Source of the DNA: an uncultured archaeon
Lineage (GTDB): Archaea > Thermoplasmatota > Thermoplasmata > Thermoplasmatales > Thermoplasmataceae
Reading direction: 5' to 3'
Assembly: GCA_000965745.1 (NCBI GenBank)
Contig: CP009479.1
Coordinates: 1,436,457 to 1,500,456, forward strand
Length of the DNA stretch: 64,000 nucleotides
The translations under genes and the position numbers were made by a program. Within the stretch, counting starts at the first letter, position 1. Every line of letters starts with the position of its first letter. This document shows positions 15,611 through 60,554 of the stretch, piece after piece. Under the pieces are notes generated by a model. The model was not told where the DNA came from, did not search any database, and worked only from the letters and a program-made list of their open reading frames with translations.

Positions 15611-15897
15611 TCACCCTTCTTTCTGACGAACATGCTGAGCATTCTGTCTGTCACGACATAGCCTCCTGTAACGTTCAGTGTCCCCATCACCACTGCAACG
15701 AAGCCTATGGCCCTCTCAAGGTCATTCTGCGCCATGCCTAGTGCGATGATAGACCCTACAAGCACTATTCCATGGATGAAATTGGAACCTGACATTAGTG
15801 GGGTGTGAAGAGTTACGGGAACCCTGCTGATCACTTCATACCCGATAAATGCAGCAAGCATTACAATGTACAGGATTATCCAGAAATCCACGCTCAT
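15607..15897 (-). CDS. pntAB: NAD(P) transhydrogenase subunit alpha part 2 (membrane)
   Basis: A 96-residue protein with three TM segments and the family stretches VPVTLHTPLMSGSNFIHG and TDRMLSMF. It is the separate membrane part of the alpha subunit, as in three-subunit transhydrogenases. Four-base overlaps with both neighbours imply coupled translation and fixed stoichiometry. Confidence 0.94.
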   Translation of the reverse strand: MSVDFWIILYIVMLAAFIGYEVISRVPVTLHTPLMSGSNFIHGIVLVGSIIALGMAQNDLERAIGFVAVVMGTLNVTGGYVVTDRMLSMFVRKKGD

Positions 15898-17033
15898 TTT
15901 GCATCACCGCCCTCTGCTCCTTTCGCTTTGTAAAAGGTCCGGCCATCATGTGTAACCATGCAGGCTTTCAGTATCTCGTCTGAACCAGCCTCTCTGATAT
16001 TTCCCTGCTCATCGACCAATAAATCCAGGAAGGAGAGAATGTTCCTCGCGTACATTTCACTCGAGCTGAATGGCACTTCGGATGGCAGATTTGAAGGCCC
16101 AACAATCCTCACGCCGCTTTCAACAATTGTTTTTCCGATCTGGGTGAGCTCGCAGTTCCCGCCTGATTCTGCTGAGAGGTCCACCAAAACTGATCCAGTC
16201 TTCATGCTCTTGATCATTCCGGCCGAAACAATCTTGGGGGCAGTTTTACCAGGCACGCTGGCTGCAGTTATTACGATATCCGCTTCTGCCACTGCATCAC
16301 TTAACAGCTTCTGCTGCTCGGCCTGCTCATCTGCTGTCAGGTCTCTGGCATATCCTCCCTCGCCTACTGCGTCAAACGTGGTTTCAAGGAATTTAGCTCC
16401 AAGGCTTCTCACATCTTCGCCCGCCGATTTCCTGACATCGAATGCTGAAACACTCGCCCCAAGCCTCTTTGAGGTGGCTATTGCCATAAGGCCGGCCACT
16501 CCTGCACCTATGATAAAAACCTTTGAAGGGCGGACTGTGCCGGCAGCAGTTGTAAGCATAGGCATTAACCGCGGTGAATTCACTGCAGCTAGTATTGCTG
16601 CCCTGTATCCTGCCACTGAAGATTGTGACGAAAGCACGTCCATGGTCTGGGCCCTTGTTATTCTGGGCATCAGCTCCAGAGAGAATGATGTAATTTTGTA
16701 TTCTGCAAGCTTCTTGACAATATCGGGAAATCTCCCGGGAAAGATTGTCCCTATCACAATTGAGCCCGGTTTCATATGTTCCACATCCACTGGTTCCGGC
16801 CTCTGAAGTGTGAGGATTATGTCTGAAGCACCCAATAGCTCATTCCTGTCTTCCCTTATTTCGGCACCGCTTCCGACATACTGTTCGTCATCAAAGAAAG
16901 CAAGCTTTCCAGCCTCTTTCTCAACAATAACCTTCAATCCCTTCTCTATAGCTTTCCTGACAACATACGGGACCATAGAGACCCTCTGCTCTGTCTCTGA
17001 GACTTCCCTCACAACGCCTACTGTCAATACCAT
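15894..17033 (-). CDS. pntAA: NAD(P) transhydrogenase subunit alpha part 1 (NAD-binding)
   Basis: A 379-residue soluble NAD(H)-binding subunit of the alanine dehydrogenase/PNT superfamily. Visible family features are VGVVREVSETEQRVSM at the N-terminus, IIGAGVAGLMAIATSKRLGA (dinucleotide fold) around residues 173-192, and the mobile-loop region GGYARDLTADEQAEQQ. First gene of the pntAA-pntAB-pntB operon. The 172-base gap to the divergent dsrE2 operon carries the promoter. The complex would balance NADH and NADPH at the expense of the large proton gradient of an acidophile. Confidence 0.96.
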   Translation of the reverse strand: MVLTVGVVREVSETEQRVSMVPYVVRKAIEKGLKVIVEKEAGKLAFFDDEQYVGSGAEIREDRNELLGASDIILTLQRPEPVDVEHMKPGSIVIGTIFPGRFPDIVKKLAEYKITSFSLELMPRITRAQTMDVLSSQSSVAGYRAAILAAVNSPRLMPMLTTAAGTVRPSKVFIIGAGVAGLMAIATSKRLGASVSAFDVRKSAGEDVRSLGAKFLETTFDAVGEGGYARDLTADEQAEQQKLLSDAVAEADIVITAASVPGKTAPKIVSAGMIKSMKTGSVLVDLSAESGGNCELTQIGKTIVESGVRIVGPSNLPSEVPFSSSEMYARNILSFLDLLVDEQGNIREAGSDEILKACMVTHDGRTFYKAKGAEGGDAK

Positions 17034-17149
17034 AATCGAACTCCGGGCAATATTAATGTACTCAGCATTTTAAAAAGTATTGACCGTATTACTAATACTT
17101 TCAAGATTGGTTTTCCAAAATATTGATATGCCGGGAATTTGAAACCTCA

Positions 17150-17159
17150 TTATATAATA
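17150..17159 (+). promoter_or_regulatory. TATA box of sulfur-relay operon
   Basis: The stretch ttatataata lies about 50 bases before the ATG at 17206, giving a predicted leader near 20-25 bases that holds a GGCGAT element just before the ATG. Confidence 0.5.
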
Positions 17160-17205
17160 GGCTTCCAGTTTATTTTCGAGGGGTCAATAATCGATAGGCG
17201 ATAAT

Positions 17206-17616
17206 ATGCCCGACAAAATGTCTCTTGTATTGTTTTCCGGAACTGACGACAAACTGATGGCTGCTTCGATAATTGCATCTGGAGGGGTAGCTAACGACAT
17301 GGATGTGGATATTTTCATCACATTCTGGGGTCTGACAAAGATAGAAAAAGACGGCCAGAAAAATCCCGACGTGAGTTTTGAAGGACAGCCGATGAAAGAC
17401 CAGGTTTTTGCGTTGATGAAAAAGAATAACGTCCCAGACTGGGTGACTATGCTCAAGAACGCGAAGGAGGTTGGAAACATAAAGGTCTACGGATGCGCTA
17501 TGTTCGCAGATCTGCTTCAACTGAAAAAGGAGGATCTTGACCCGATCGTTGACGACATTATTGGAGTTAATGAATTTGTATCGATGTCAAAGGATTCCAT
17601 GACTATGTTTATATGA
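17206..17616 (+). CDS. dsrE2: DsrE2-like sulfur carrier (DsrE/F/H-like family)
   Basis: A 136-residue protein of the DsrE2 type: an [20 protein letters not shown] nucleotide-like N-terminus and the conserved Cys in [18 protein letters not shown], followed by a GVNEFVSMS-type C-terminus. In this family the cysteine carries persulfide or thiosulfonate. It heads a four-gene operon with tusA two bases downstream. In Sulfolobales and sulfur-oxidising bacteria DsrE and TusA exchange sulfur between oxidation enzymes; the same role is inferred here. Confidence 0.85.
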
Positions 17617-17617
17617 G

Positions 17618-17869
17618 GTGAAAAAGATGGAAAGTGAAGTTAAGCCTTCGAAGGTTGTAGACGCCAGAAACACATTCTGCCCAGGCCCGCTGATGGAACT
17701 CATAAAAGCCTACAAGGCGGCAAAGACTGACGATATCATATCGTTATACTCAACAGACAGCGGAACCAAGAGAGACGCGCCCGCGTGGATTAAGAAATCA
17801 GGAAATGAACTCGTTGGCGTTTATGACAGGGAAGGATATTTCGAAATAGTCATGAAGAAAACCAAGTGA
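17618..17869 (+). CDS. tusA: TusA-family sulfur carrier
   Basis: An 83-residue protein with the TusA/SirA signature: [17 protein letters not shown], where the Cys of the CPGP motif carries persulfide, and a C-terminal beta-alpha-beta core with the [14 protein letters not shown] helix. It overlaps the next gene by four bases. Neighbouring DsrE2 and the SQR-like flavoprotein point to sulfane-sulfur relay rather than tRNA thiolation. Confidence 0.92.
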
Positions 17870-19014
17870 GTATGACTATGCCGACTAAAATACTTGTACT
17901 AGGGGATGGTGCGGCGGGCACCATCATTTCCAATAAACTACGGTATCTCATCAGGAAAGAGAACGCTGAGATAACTGTTATAGGCAACTCAAAATACCAT
18001 TATTTCAAACCTGACGGAATTCACATACCACTGGGGATGAAGGACTACCAGACAAGTGTGAAGAAACCCGATTATCTCTTCAACTACGGAATCGATTACA
18101 TCAAAGATACTGTGACGAAGATTGATGTTGAAAACAGGAAGGTGGATGTAAGTTCAGGCAGGGAATACACATATGATTACCTTATAATCGCAACAGGGGA
18201 CAGATTAGTGACTGACGAGTTCCAGAACTTCGACTCTGAAGCGCACCACTTCTACTCACTTGAAGCTTCTCTGGAATTGGGGAAGGAACTTTCAAAATTC
18301 AACGGTGGAAAAATAGTGGTGGGGCCTTCGAGCATACCATATCAGTGCCCACCTGCCCCATATGAATTTACATTCCAGCTAGACAGGTATCTCAGAAGGC
18401 GCGGAATCAGAGACAAGACAGAACTGCACTACACCTTCCCGCTGAACAGGGTATTCACCATGGAAAATGTCTCTGAAAGAGTCCAGGACCTGTTTGACGA
18501 GAAGGACATCGAGTACCACACCATGTTCAATCTGGAGTCGATCGATGCCGACTCCAAGAAACTGGTATCCCTTGAGGGTGATGAGCTGGATTATGACCTC
18601 CTTATCCTGGTGCCCCCCCATAAGGGACAGCAGGTAATCACCGACTCCGGTCTTGCTGATGAGCAGGGGTATATAGACGTCGACAGGCACAAACTCTCAT
18701 ACGGGAACTACGACAATGTATTCGTCATAGGTGATGCCACAAACCTCCCGATTTCAAAAGCTGGTGCTACAGCGCATTTCGAGTCAGAATACCTTGCAGG
18801 GAAAATTGCATCTGAGGTTTCCGGGTTTGTGTCAGAAGAGTTTTATGATGGTTCTGTGGCATGCACAACAGTCACTGGAGATGAGAGGGCCTTCACCCTG
18901 TACTTCTCATACGAAAGGCCTCCGAGAGCCATGTACCAGAGCAAGCTGGACTTCCTGCTTAAATGGACTTCAGCAGACACTTATTTCAGCGCAATGCTAA
19001 GAGGGGTGATGTGA
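17866..19014 (+). CDS. Sulfide:quinone oxidoreductase-like FAD flavoprotein
   Basis: A 382-residue two-dinucleotide-fold flavoprotein. It has an N-terminal FAD motif [10 protein letters not shown], the ATGDRL motif at about 109-114, and [22 protein letters not shown] near the C-terminus. C161 (YQCPPAPYE) and C333 align by context with the redox-active cysteine pair of SQR. A third cysteine, often seen about 50 residues earlier in archaeal SQR, is absent. The C-terminus is amphipathic, fitting monotopic membrane attachment. Between tusA and DUF1641, it may pass sulfane sulfur to TusA. Confidence 0.78.
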
Positions 19015-19485
19015 ATGGAAAGACCTGAAATGTTAAATGACGAGATGGAGGAACTTCTCGTCAAGGTATTGGAAAATGCAGACGTCATAAATTCGATGGT
19101 GGGCGTTGTTGAGAAGCTTAAGGCGGCAGGTATCATAGACCTGATGACGAGCATTGTCAACGACTATCTCCCCACGGATGTAGATTTCCTTGGGAAATTC
19201 TTTTCTTCAAAAGAATTCACAATGTCTCTCATGAAGACCTTCAACGTTCTGATATCGGTAATGGGGGCAATGGGATCGGAGAAGAATTCTGACATCGTAA
19301 AGGGGCTCATGTTCAATTCGGAGAATGTAACTGACGGCATGATGGACGCTGTCCACAACCCAAAGAAATACTCTCCGTTCAAAATTGGAAAGCTCCTCTC
19401 TGACGAGGATATCATGGTAACCATGTCCGCTCTGGTTGCACTGATGAAAAGTATGGGGCAGATATTAAGGAAAATCACCCCATAG
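19015..19485 (+). CDS. DUF1641 protein
   Basis: A 156-residue mainly helical protein of the DUF1641 type (LVKVLENADVINSMVG..., KAAGIIDLM). The ATG directly follows the flavoprotein stop, so the two are almost certainly co-translated. DUF1641 genes recur beside SQR-like flavoproteins and sulfur carriers; a structural or membrane-docking role for the flavoprotein is inference. Confidence 0.75.
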   Translation: MERPEMLNDEMEELLVKVLENADVINSMVGVVEKLKAAGIIDLMTSIVNDYLPTDVDFLGKFFSSKEFTMSLMKTFNVLISVMGAMGSEKNSDIVKGLMFNSENVTDGMMDAVHNPKKYSPFKIGKLLSDEDIMVTMSALVALMKSMGQILRKITP

Positions 19486-19625: not shown

Positions 19626-19934
19626 CTGCAGCCCTAATTGATTCTGAAGTATTTATTTTTTAGTTTCTGTGGTATCTCCTTGCACCGAAAAACAAACAGC
19701 CAAAAAATTTAAGTATTGGAAAAAGCGAAAAAGAAAAATGATATAAACCATAGACGAATTGCTTTACTGTTAATGCCCTTAAATAGCAGTTTTCCAATGA
19801 TTTCATTGCTTAATATTTAAGTATTCTACTTGTAGGATTGCTAACTAATAAGCAAAATAGGGAATTAGCTACAACACCGACAAAACTGTTTTAATATATC
19901 TGTTTCTACTCGATTACAATAGGTGATACCAGAA
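19626..19934. other. AT-rich region upstream of tes
   Basis: This 309-base gap holds no ORF of note. It is strongly AT-rich, with two copies of tttaagtatt (about 19718 and 19815) of unknown meaning, and the tes promoter at its right end. A leader RNA or regulator sites are possible but not recognisable. Confidence 0.3.
19890..19927 (+). promoter_or_regulatory. tes TATA box and GGTGAT ribosome site
   Basis: The TATA-like tttaatatat is at 19890-19899 and GGTGAT is at 19922-19927, eight bases before ATG 19935. This fixes 19935 rather than GTG 19923, which lies inside the ribosome site. Confidence 0.6.
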
Positions 19935-21770
19935 ATGATTGTGTCTGAGGAAAGAGACAGGTATCCGGAGATCAGATTCGCCAACGACTTCGAGCTGAGC
20001 AAGAATGCTCCGTTCAAGGCGGTTGACGAGTTCGTCAACGAGATGGGGCATCTGATAAATCCCGAAATGATGATTCTTAGAGTAACTCTGAGTCTTTGTC
20101 CGATCTGTGTTGACGACGAGAAGTTTGATCAGATGAGGATACCCGCGATAGTGTACGAAAATGCTGGTGAAGTGAAACTCGTTAAGGAATGCGAGGAGCA
20201 CGGAGTGACTGAAGAAAAATACTGGGAAGACTATGAAATGTACCAGGAGGCCAAGAAATGGCTCGACCCTGGTGTAAAGATTCTCAACCCACATGTTGCA
20301 TACCTTGAATCAAAGATCAAGTGCCCAACACACTGTGGACTTTGTGTTAAGCACAAATCACACACAGGACTTGGAAACGTTGTTGTAACGAACAGATGTG
20401 ACCTTTCCTGCTGGTACTGTTTCTTCTACGCGAAGGAAGATGAGCCAATATATGAGCCATCACAGGACCAGGTCAGGATGATGCTCAGAAGAATGAGAAA
20501 CGAGAAGCCAGTCGGGGCAAACGCCGTCCAGATTACTGGTGGAGAGCCAGCAATAAGGGACGACATCATTGACATAATCAAGATAGCAAGAGAAGAGGGC
20601 TATGAGCATATACAGCTCAACACAAACAGTGTAAGAGCAGCCTTTGACCCGGACTTCCCCAAGAAGATCAGAGGTGCAGGCTCAAATGTCATATACACAA
20701 GCTTTGACGGCCCAACACCGAGATCCAACCCAAAGAACTTTTGGGAAATCCCCGCAGCTCTTGAAAATTACAAGAATGCACCTCTTGGTGTTGTCCTCGT
20801 TCCGACAGTCATTGGCGGAATAAACGACATGTATCTGGGAGACATGATCAAGTTCGGTCTGTCCAACATAGATGTCGTAAGGGCAGTAAACTTCCAGCCG
20901 GTAAGCCTGGTAGGAAGAATGCCGGAGAGGATGAGAGCCAAGCAGAGAGTCACGATACCCGGAGCTATCAAGAAGATAGAACAGCAGACAGATGGTATGA
21001 TAGGAAGGGAAGACTTCTTTACAGTGCCTTCAACTGCAAAGGTTTCAAACTTCGTAGAACAGCTCAAGGGTAAAGAAATGTACAAGCTCTCCATACACTT
21101 TGCCTGTGGAATGGGAACATACATCTTCAAGGACGATGACAGAATCATACCGATTACGAGGTTCATCGATGTCAGAGGAATGTTCGAGTACATCGGGGAA
21201 CTCGCAGACGAGATGAAGAACGCTTCGTTCAAGAAGATAAGGAAGGTTACCTCCACATCCAAGCTGCTTATGAGCCTGAGGAAGTTTGTCGACTACGAGA
21301 AAGCACCAAAGGACTTCAAGCTCAAGGACATGGTATACAATGCATTCACAGACGGAGATTACCACGGCCTGAAGGCATTCCACTACAAGTCAATGTTCAT
21401 TGGGTTCATGCACTTCATGGATCCATACACGTATGATGTTGACAGAGTGGAGAGGTGTGATATACACTACGCGATGCCTGATGGAAGAGTTGTTCCGTTC
21501 TGTGCTTTCAATGTCATACCAGAAATGTACAGAGACGCAACACAGAGGAAATACTCAGTACCAGCAAGGACATATGAGGAGAGGACCGGAAAGATCCTCA
21601 AGAAAGACAAATATTTCAGAGACTACAGCATGGAAGACAAGAAGAGAATCATTGACTTCTACAACAAGAGCATAGGCAGGGAACTCTCCGAAAGTGAGAT
21701 AGGCCTTAATCTTAACAAGGCTATACCTGTGATACAGTCTCAAAGACCGGATGAGCAGCTCGAAGAGTAG
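19935..21770 (+). CDS. tes: Tetraether synthase (Tes), radical SAM
   Basis: A 611-residue enzyme expected to join two archaeol lipid tails through C-C bonds, giving the membrane-spanning GDGT core. The radical SAM cluster motif is C155-x3-C159-x2-C162 (CDLSCWYC followed by FFYA). The extra iron-site cysteines of the MJ0619/Tes family are present: C55/C58 (CPIC), C130, C134, C137 (CPTHCGLC) and one in KECEEHG. The order matches Tes, formerly called a class D radical SAM methyltransferase. Recognition rests on these motifs and overall length. Confidence 0.9.
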   Translation: MIVSEERDRYPEIRFANDFELSKNAPFKAVDEFVNEMGHLINPEMMILRVTLSLCPICVDDEKFDQMRIPAIVYENAGEVKLVKECEEHGVTEEKYWEDYEMYQEAKKWLDPGVKILNPHVAYLESKIKCPTHCGLCVKHKSHTGLGNVVVTNRCDLSCWYCFFYAKEDEPIYEPSQDQVRMMLRRMRNEKPVGANAVQITGGEPAIRDDIIDIIKIAREEGYEHIQLNTNSVRAAFDPDFPKKIRGAGSNVIYTSFDGPTPRSNPKNFWEIPAALENYKNAPLGVVLVPTVIGGINDMYLGDMIKFGLSNIDVVRAVNFQPVSLVGRMPERMRAKQRVTIPGAIKKIEQQTDGMIGREDFFTVPSTAKVSNFVEQLKGKEMYKLSIHFACGMGTYIFKDDDRIIPITRFIDVRGMFEYIGELADEMKNASFKKIRKVTSTSKLLMSLRKFVDYEKAPKDFKLKDMVYNAFTDGDYHGLKAFHYKSMFIGFMHFMDPYTYDVDRVERCDIHYAMPDGRVVPFCAFNVIPEMYRDATQRKYSVPARTYEERTGKILKKDKYFRDYSMEDKKRIIDFYNKSIGRELSESEIGLNLNKAIPVIQSQRPDEQLEE

Positions 21771-58410: not shown

Positions 58411-58565
58411 AGCAAATGCTGCGATACGAATATCAAGGGAAAAGATCCTGAATCTCGGGAAGAATGAGTGAAAAAAAACTAGGTATCAGCCCCTATATTA
58501 ATTTTCCACTTTTATCCATTACATATTAGGTGGATTATTTTTAATTTTCAACCAGCTAAATATTT

Positions 58566-59686: not shown

Positions 59687-60277
59687 TTAAGCCGGCAATG
59701 TCGGATTCTTTGCAGTCTCTTTTTCCCTTATGGAGAAGAACGCTACTGCAAACAGAATTTCAGCTACCAGTATCAGGATGAATCCTATGGCAATGACAGC
59801 CGTGATCGCCCCAATAAGGTATATCAAGGCTGCTGTGCCAAACAGCCCAACGTCGAGTTTTGTGGCAATGCTGCTGTAACTCTTCCTCAGGAATACCGCT
59901 GAAATGATCAGCATGATCCACACTGCTATCAGGCCAGGTATTATTGCTAGTGCAAATGCAACCCAGTTTCCCTGCTGCAGATTCGGGGGTACGCCAGCAC
60001 TCATTCCGCCAAATCCGCCAACCCCAATGACAGCAAGAAAAGCTCCTATTATTGCAAGGCCGGCAACTACAACTGCAACAATCGCCAGTATTATTGCAAT
60101 CACCATGTTATTGAAGATGTCTCTGTCCTCGACGATCACGGAAATGGACCTTATCGCTATAAGCGTGAGTATAAACCCTACTATTCCAAGTAGCCACCCA
60201 ACACTGGGCACAGGGGTCAATAAAACCAGGACAGAACCAATCCCGCCCATGGCTTTAGCTTCTGATAATGACGCCAT
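59687..60277 (-). CDS. DUF996 membrane protein
   Basis: A 196-residue protein with the DUF996 start (SLSEAKAMGGIGSVLVLLTPVPSVGWLL) and about five TM segments, e.g. MVIAIILAIVAVVVAGLAIIGAF. A GGAGTTGAT ribosome site lies about ten bases before ATG 60277. The family is widespread in archaea and uncharacterised. Confidence 0.8.
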   Translation of the reverse strand: MASLSEAKAMGGIGSVLVLLTPVPSVGWLLGIVGFILTLIAIRSISVIVEDRDIFNNMVIAIILAIVAVVVAGLAIIGAFLAVIGVGGFGGMSAGVPPNLQQGNWVAFALAIIPGLIAVWIMLIISAVFLRKSYSSIATKLDVGLFGTAALIYLIGAITAVIAIGFILILVAEILFAVAFFSIREKETAKNPTLPA

Positions 60278-60554
60278 TATTGATCAACTCCTGTATTATT
60301 TACAGCCACTCCTAAAATAAGGACTTGCCCTTACGTATAAGGGACATCTGATAATGGCATGACTCAGTTCTTTTTAGATTTCAGATGCACTTGTTCATGG
60401 GTTAAATCATACATGAACGACAACCATTCTCTGTTGACACTTTAGAAATTAGCTTTGGGAAACACTCTTCGATTAGGTGTTACTGGTGAGGTATACTGTT
60501 GAATACACTTAGATTTGATTATTATAATGGGGCATTCAAAGGTGGCGATACCTC
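60278..60554. other. Gap with short perfect hairpin
   Basis: A gap of 277 bases. A 6-bp stem with loop CGTA (ccctta...taaggg, 60328-60343) is present. A TATA-like attattataa (60519-60528) and a GGTGGCGAT element precede the next gene. No ORF was recognised. Confidence 0.3.

Follow-up and report, generated by a model that had tools for sequence, protein, structure and literature searches.

A tight cluster of four genes lies at positions 17206 to 19485 of the window, the whole 64,000-nucleotide stretch of archaeal DNA analysed here. The window's genome is a single 2.23-Mb contig, and the named relatives closest to it are metagenome assemblies of Thermoplasmata and Thermoplasmatales. The genes encode a DsrE2-like protein, TusA, a flavoprotein related to sulfide:quinone oxidoreductases (SQRs), and a DUF1641 protein. 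The features are as follows, in window coordinates:

17148..17162, + strand: operator-like element CATTATATAATAGGC, the window copy of the imperfect palindrome CCTAANATGTTAGGC
17206..17616, + strand: dsrE2-like gene (PF13686), ATG start, 136 aa
17618..17869, + strand: tusA, GTG start, 83 aa
17866..19014, + strand: SQR-like flavoprotein gene, probably type III-like, two cysteines, GTG start, 382 aa
17902..17919, + strand: GDGAAG, FAD-binding GxGxxG motif, flavoprotein residues 13-18
18346..18348, + strand: Cys161 codon of the flavoprotein, aligning with Cys201 of human SQOR
18862..18864, + strand: Cys333 codon of the flavoprotein, aligning with Cys379 of human SQOR
19015..19485, + strand: DUF1641 (ForE-like) gene, ATG start, 156 aa

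The tight packing described in an earlier note on this DNA is borne out: the spacings are +1 base between the dsrE2-like gene and tusA, -4 (an overlap) between tusA and the flavoprotein gene, and 0 between the latter and the DUF1641 gene. Alternative starts (ATG 17627 for tusA; ATG 17872 or 17878 for the flavoprotein) would shift these values slightly. A divergent gene for NAD(P) transhydrogenase (15894-17033, - strand) flanks the operon on one side; on the other come a tRNA-Gly (- strand) and then, at 19923-21770, the gene for tetraether lipid synthase (Tes), which scores 687 bits against an NCBIfam cut-off of 450.

The flavoprotein

The flavoprotein matches Pfam PF07992 (65.7 bits; cut-off 26.1), and its nearest relatives among solved structures are SQRs. 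A single-sequence phmmer search places human SQOR, a type II SQR, closest (2e-40); a profile search of solved structures gives Acidianus SQR 3h8i (2e-59), and the predicted fold is best matched by SQOR 6oi6 (Foldseek, TM-score 0.76). Identity to human SQOR is about 25%; SQOR extends about 25 residues further, and no DUF1641 partner is known for it.

The earlier note had observed that the protein keeps C161 and C333 and lacks a third cysteine. Both cysteines are indeed present, and they are the only ones in the sequence. In the alignment with human SQOR they fall on its chain positions 161 and 339, which lie 178 residues apart just as Cys201 and Cys379 do; they also align with two of the cysteines of Acidianus SQR. 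The note's reading of the two-cysteine state as a peculiarity does not hold. Human SQOR works with two cysteines, carries a Cys379-S-S-S-Cys201 bridge, and hands the sulfur of Cys379 on to an external acceptor (PMC11039317), and a recent study describes two catalytic cysteines as canonical in type III SQRs (PMC13047784). The best family model is NCBIfam NF049943 (type III SQR, Caldivirga maquilingensis type), whose members share two catalytic cysteines and the FAD fold with the window protein; the score of 345 bits is below the cut-off of 525 of this narrow selenoprotein-subtype model, which is the only NCBIfam type III model, and the window operon differs in adding a downstream DUF1641 gene. 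Given the alignment with SQOR, the type III canon, and the rank of NF049943, the missing third cysteine is the normal look of this kind of SQR. The GDGAAG motif, also singled out earlier, is a standard GxGxxG motif, and its GDG is retained in nearly all window-type homologues. As read from the sequence, the flavoprotein is most likely an ordinary two-cysteine, type III-like SQR.

The flavoprotein might instead run reductively, reducing persulfide or polysulfide and so freeing sulfide from TusA or from low-molecular-weight persulfides. It belongs to the same two-dinucleotide-domain superfamily as CoA-disulfide/persulfide reductases, which are present among its weaker matches, but SQRs are its closest relatives by a wide margin. 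Moreover, there is no GxGxxG motif for NAD(P)H in its second Rossmann segment, an argument against dependence on NAD(P)H, and a DUF1641 protein resembling a quinone adaptor is kept beside it. We regard the reductive reading as improbable. Another reading, an enzyme like flavocytochrome c sulfide dehydrogenase (FCSD) that passes electrons to a cytochrome and not to quinone, draws on a match to the FCSD_central domain just over threshold (28.5 bits; cut-off 27). It is very improbable: SQOR and Acidianus SQR outscore FCSD, no signal peptide is visible at the N terminus, and the unit holds no cytochrome gene.

In the structure model, pLDDT falls below 50 at residues 157-163 (the C161 loop) and over the 42 C-terminal residues 341-382, so cysteine-flavin distances are unreadable from it.

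Conservation of gene order

We located the four families in 80 regions from 61 related genomes, the gene-order survey that the earlier note had proposed. Of the 19 nearest flavoprotein homologues (window protein included), 17 have the order dsrE2-tusA-SQR-like-DUF1641, and the arrangement is thus more than chance; of the two exceptions, one contig ends too early and one locus is without dsrE2-tusA. The other 18 proteins are 56-79% identical to the window flavoprotein. Both C161 and C333 are kept in all 19, and in all 25 members of a wider window-side clade. An orthologous flavoprotein gene of a metagenome assembly, with an in-frame stop that is perhaps an assembly error (L004:6001-7134), was left out of the alignments.

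In the tree, 48 flavoproteins form one clade with 100/100 support with outgroup, and DUF1641 lies directly downstream in 47 of them. Several members have SQR-DUF1641 without dsrE2-tusA; the carriers are therefore not obligatory. The pairing reaches haloarchaeal plasmids, where tusA-SQR-DUF1641 occurs in Halobaculum and Halobacterium and SQR-DUF1641 in Natronorubrum and Natronosalvus, all with both cysteines. The units of Halobacterium hubeiense pSTJ002 and Halobaculum halobium have the same order as the window's, but at 31-36% identity and with no dsrE2 directly in front, and are known there from annotated genes alone.

Three haloarchaeal loci have further features. The Halobaculum halobium plasmid carries two SQR-DUF1641 pairs in tandem (L163), and on the Natronosalvus amylolyticus plasmid the pair lies between two cytochrome bd gene sets (L167). 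In Haloarcula sinaiiensis, a hypothetical protein behind the SQR (L165:5098-5496) looks like an unrecognised, diverged DUF1641.

The sulfur carriers

The DsrE2-like protein scores 78.8 bits against Pfam PF13686 (cut-off 25), and its single conserved cysteine, Cys97 (KVYGCAMFA), is kept in 31 of 31 homologues collected. Its score against the NCBIfam DsrE2 equivalog NF047629 is 30.3 bits, short of the cut-off of 210; "DsrE2" is thus a family-level name for a PF13686 protein, not a proven DsrE2. TusA matches PF01206 (65.7 bits; cut-off 28.6), and the cysteine of its CPGP motif, Cys21, is conserved in 32 of 32 homologues. The family matches and the conserved gene order agree with the earlier note that TusA, a DsrE2-like carrier, and an SQR-type flavoprotein belong to one unit, and a sulfur relay among the three is plausible.

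This linkage has a published counterpart. In Methylacidiphilum fumariolicum, the operon MFUM_v2_0219-0221 comprises dsrE2, tusA, and a type III SQR gene, the same three gene kinds as in the window, and is up-regulated by H2S; DUF1641 is not mentioned in that paper (PMC10205796). The linkage of TusA and DsrE2 also occurs on haloarchaeal and Chloroflexota plasmids. The window's genome itself holds a second, canonical dsrE2-tusA-SQR operon (L042, G000:C1:556500-565500), whose SQR is 33% identical, has a longer C terminus, and lacks DUF1641; a transposase-like gene lies just upstream. The recurrence of the linkage beside this second SQR, on plasmids, and in Methylacidiphilum counts for an SQR made together with its sulfur carriers.

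With the same SQR, the carriers could serve biosynthesis and not energy metabolism, TusA and DsrE2 delivering sulfane sulfur for tRNA thiolation or for the assembly of molybdenum cofactor or iron-sulfur centres. Many bacteria use TusA to carry sulfur for biosynthesis, which counts for this reading. So does a PF02754 search, which finds no HdrB1 or HdrB2 of the sHdr complex type in the window's genome; the sole matches are an HdrD-like membrane protein beside ETF genes and a glycolate-oxidase-type protein. Against it, the genome has a fourth, unlinked TusA, whereas SQR-like flavoproteins accompany the linked ones, and expression of the Methylacidiphilum operon follows sulfide. We consider the biosynthetic role unlikely, if less so than reductive operation of the flavoprotein. 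A search for sulfur oxygenase reductase was silent in the controls as well and is uninformative.

Additional tusA genes were seen: the nearest relative has one divergent from the operon (L043:1737-2039), and a lone tusA in the window's genome (G000:C1:2084165) is similar to it.

DUF1641 and a possible route to quinone

The fourth gene product matches PF07849 at 26.4 bits (cut-off 21). It is predicted to be all-helical with no clear transmembrane segment (highest 19-residue hydropathy 1.57). A profile built from the window protein and eight relatives has one match in the PDB, ForE1 (8rqz); it covers residues 4-150, or 147 of 156 positions, and is weak at an E value of 0.0089. The structure model is poor (pLDDT 70, pTM 0.33), too poor for a fold search, which returned no match. 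A tblastn search of DUF1641 against plasmids was equally empty, though the SQR neighbours on those plasmids do encode DUF1641.

The earlier note held that DUF1641 has no known function. That view is out of date: Bacillus subtilis has a menaquinone-linked formate dehydrogenase for which the DUF1641 proteins YjgD and YrhD (ForE) are essential as partner subunits, and absence of ForE1 costs the enzyme most of its bound menaquinone as well as its quinone activity (PMC8808070). ForE structures exist, and both the coupling to quinone and its binding need ForE1 (PMC8808070, PMC13397495). ForCE, like the window operon, pairs DUF1641 with a dehydrogenase, and it reduces quinone; its catalytic partner is a Mo/FeS formate dehydrogenase, while that in the window is a flavoprotein. 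A role for DUF1641 in linking the flavoprotein to membrane quinone thus appears better founded than the earlier note knew, and its idea of membrane docking would give way to the more precise one of quinone coupling. Both DUF1641 genes of the window's genome lie directly behind an SQR-like gene. No description of an SQR-DUF1641 pair was found in the literature searched.

We considered and set aside two ideas on how the proteins might fit together. One is that DUF1641 replaces a C-terminal membrane segment of the SQR: 48-59 residues follow C333 in proteins with DUF1641 downstream and 49-81 (median 63) in those without, but nine of the proteins that lack DUF1641 have tails just as short, and the comparison is confounded by phylogeny. 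The other is that the tail motif Y-[FW]-xxxx-RG forms the interface with DUF1641; human SQOR has the same motif.

A syntenic paralogue without the cysteines

The window's genome also carries a paralogous unit, tusA-flavoprotein-DUF1641-OsmC (G000:C1, about 1,384,350-1,386,870; L133:7852-10340), whose flavoprotein is 48% identical to that of the operon and carries Y and W at the positions of the two cysteines. Across the sample, 17 proteins lack both (L133 and loci among L065-L120), with many different replacements; DUF1641 lies downstream in 17/17 and OsmC in 13/17. The paralogue locus adjoins the same divergent gene in many genomes, and some species keep both cysteines there. In a tree built with the cysteine-flanking columns removed, the cysteine state must have changed five times or more, and two of these changes fall on nested branches with good support. 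The comparison of sequences thus indicates that this syntenic paralogue has repeatedly lost both cysteines, a loss that is new here.

Close cysteine-less pairs have dN of 0.02-0.06 at dS of about 1.1, signifying strong purifying selection, so the genes are being maintained. Among the most diverged of them, even FAD motifs have drifted. Since the cysteine-less paralogues retain DUF1641, its presence need not imply sulfide oxidation. Nevertheless, the cysteines kept in the window-side clade count for an SQR, although the neighbouring paralogue clade loses them.

A selenoprotein was considered for the paralogue L010, on account of an in-frame TGA there and of NF049943 being a selenoprotein model. 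The TGA is the tusA stop overlapping the next start, and there is no selenocysteine.

An operator-like palindrome upstream of dsrE2

The palindrome CCTAANATGTTAGGC lies at -57 to -62 from dsrE2 in 16 of 17 genomes (L043-L058), as scored with a leave-one-out PWM for which a chance match is expected in about 3% of genomes; the window copy CATTATATAATAGGC is the weakest of the sixteen. This conserved, operator-like element is new here. Similar high-scoring sites precede cydA in 4 of 26 genes examined; in three cases, those of the window's genome and its nearest relative included (L175/L225), the site lies near -57 to -63. Genome-wide, the pattern is not enriched over a reversed control (41 vs 88), and similar sites also precede unrelated genes; a regulator shared by SQR and cytochrome bd is therefore only a lead. 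Two further strong matches lie in the window, at 60329-60343 and 58517-58531, one of them some 52 bases upstream of a gene for a predicted membrane protein (59687-60277, - strand).

Proposed function and outlook

We propose that the operon probably encodes an SQR of the two-cysteine, type III kind, made with sulfur carriers and a ForE-like adaptor. Sulfide would attack the (poly)sulfide bridge between C161 and C333, with electrons moving via FAD to quinone, as in human SQOR. DUF1641 would act as a ForE-like peripheral subunit joining the flavoprotein to membrane quinone. Gene linkage and the conserved cysteines suggest a path for sulfane sulfur from C333 to Cys21 of TusA and on to Cys97 of the DsrE2-like protein, and electrons would end at the heme-copper or bd oxidases of the genome, which has two of the former and one of the latter.

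Homology to SQOR and Acidianus SQR, the aligned invariant cysteines, the linkage to DUF1641, and the relation to ForE1 all count for an SQR with an adaptor, as do the oxidases in the window's genome and the Natronosalvus pair between cytochrome bd genes. In the metatranscriptome of a sulfur-fed bioreactor, the most abundant sqr transcripts were those assigned to a Ferroplasma-like archaeon (PMC6289977).

The combination of SQR and carriers is mostly of known kinds, and TusA and DsrE2 beside a type III SQR are already published for Methylacidiphilum. The operon is real and conserved, and the parts worth following are the SQR-DUF1641 pairing and the cysteine-losing paralogue. Tentatively, and with somewhat less than even confidence, we suggest that SQR-DUF1641 is a two-subunit SQR in which the ForE-like adaptor provides the contact with quinone or membrane and can plug into soluble dehydrogenases in general (formate dehydrogenase, SQR, and possibly hydrogenase), and that the cysteine-less paralogue, kept with DUF1641 and OsmC and in some species lacking parts of its FAD motifs as well, has become a pseudo-SQR that serves a different function. 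Should DUF1641 be the quinone adaptor of this SQR, a single small helical protein would explain how several unrelated soluble dehydrogenases gain access to the quinone pool. The paired lineages, one with invariant cysteines and one that has repeatedly lost them, offer a natural experiment that may separate the residues of sulfide chemistry from those on the partner or quinone side.
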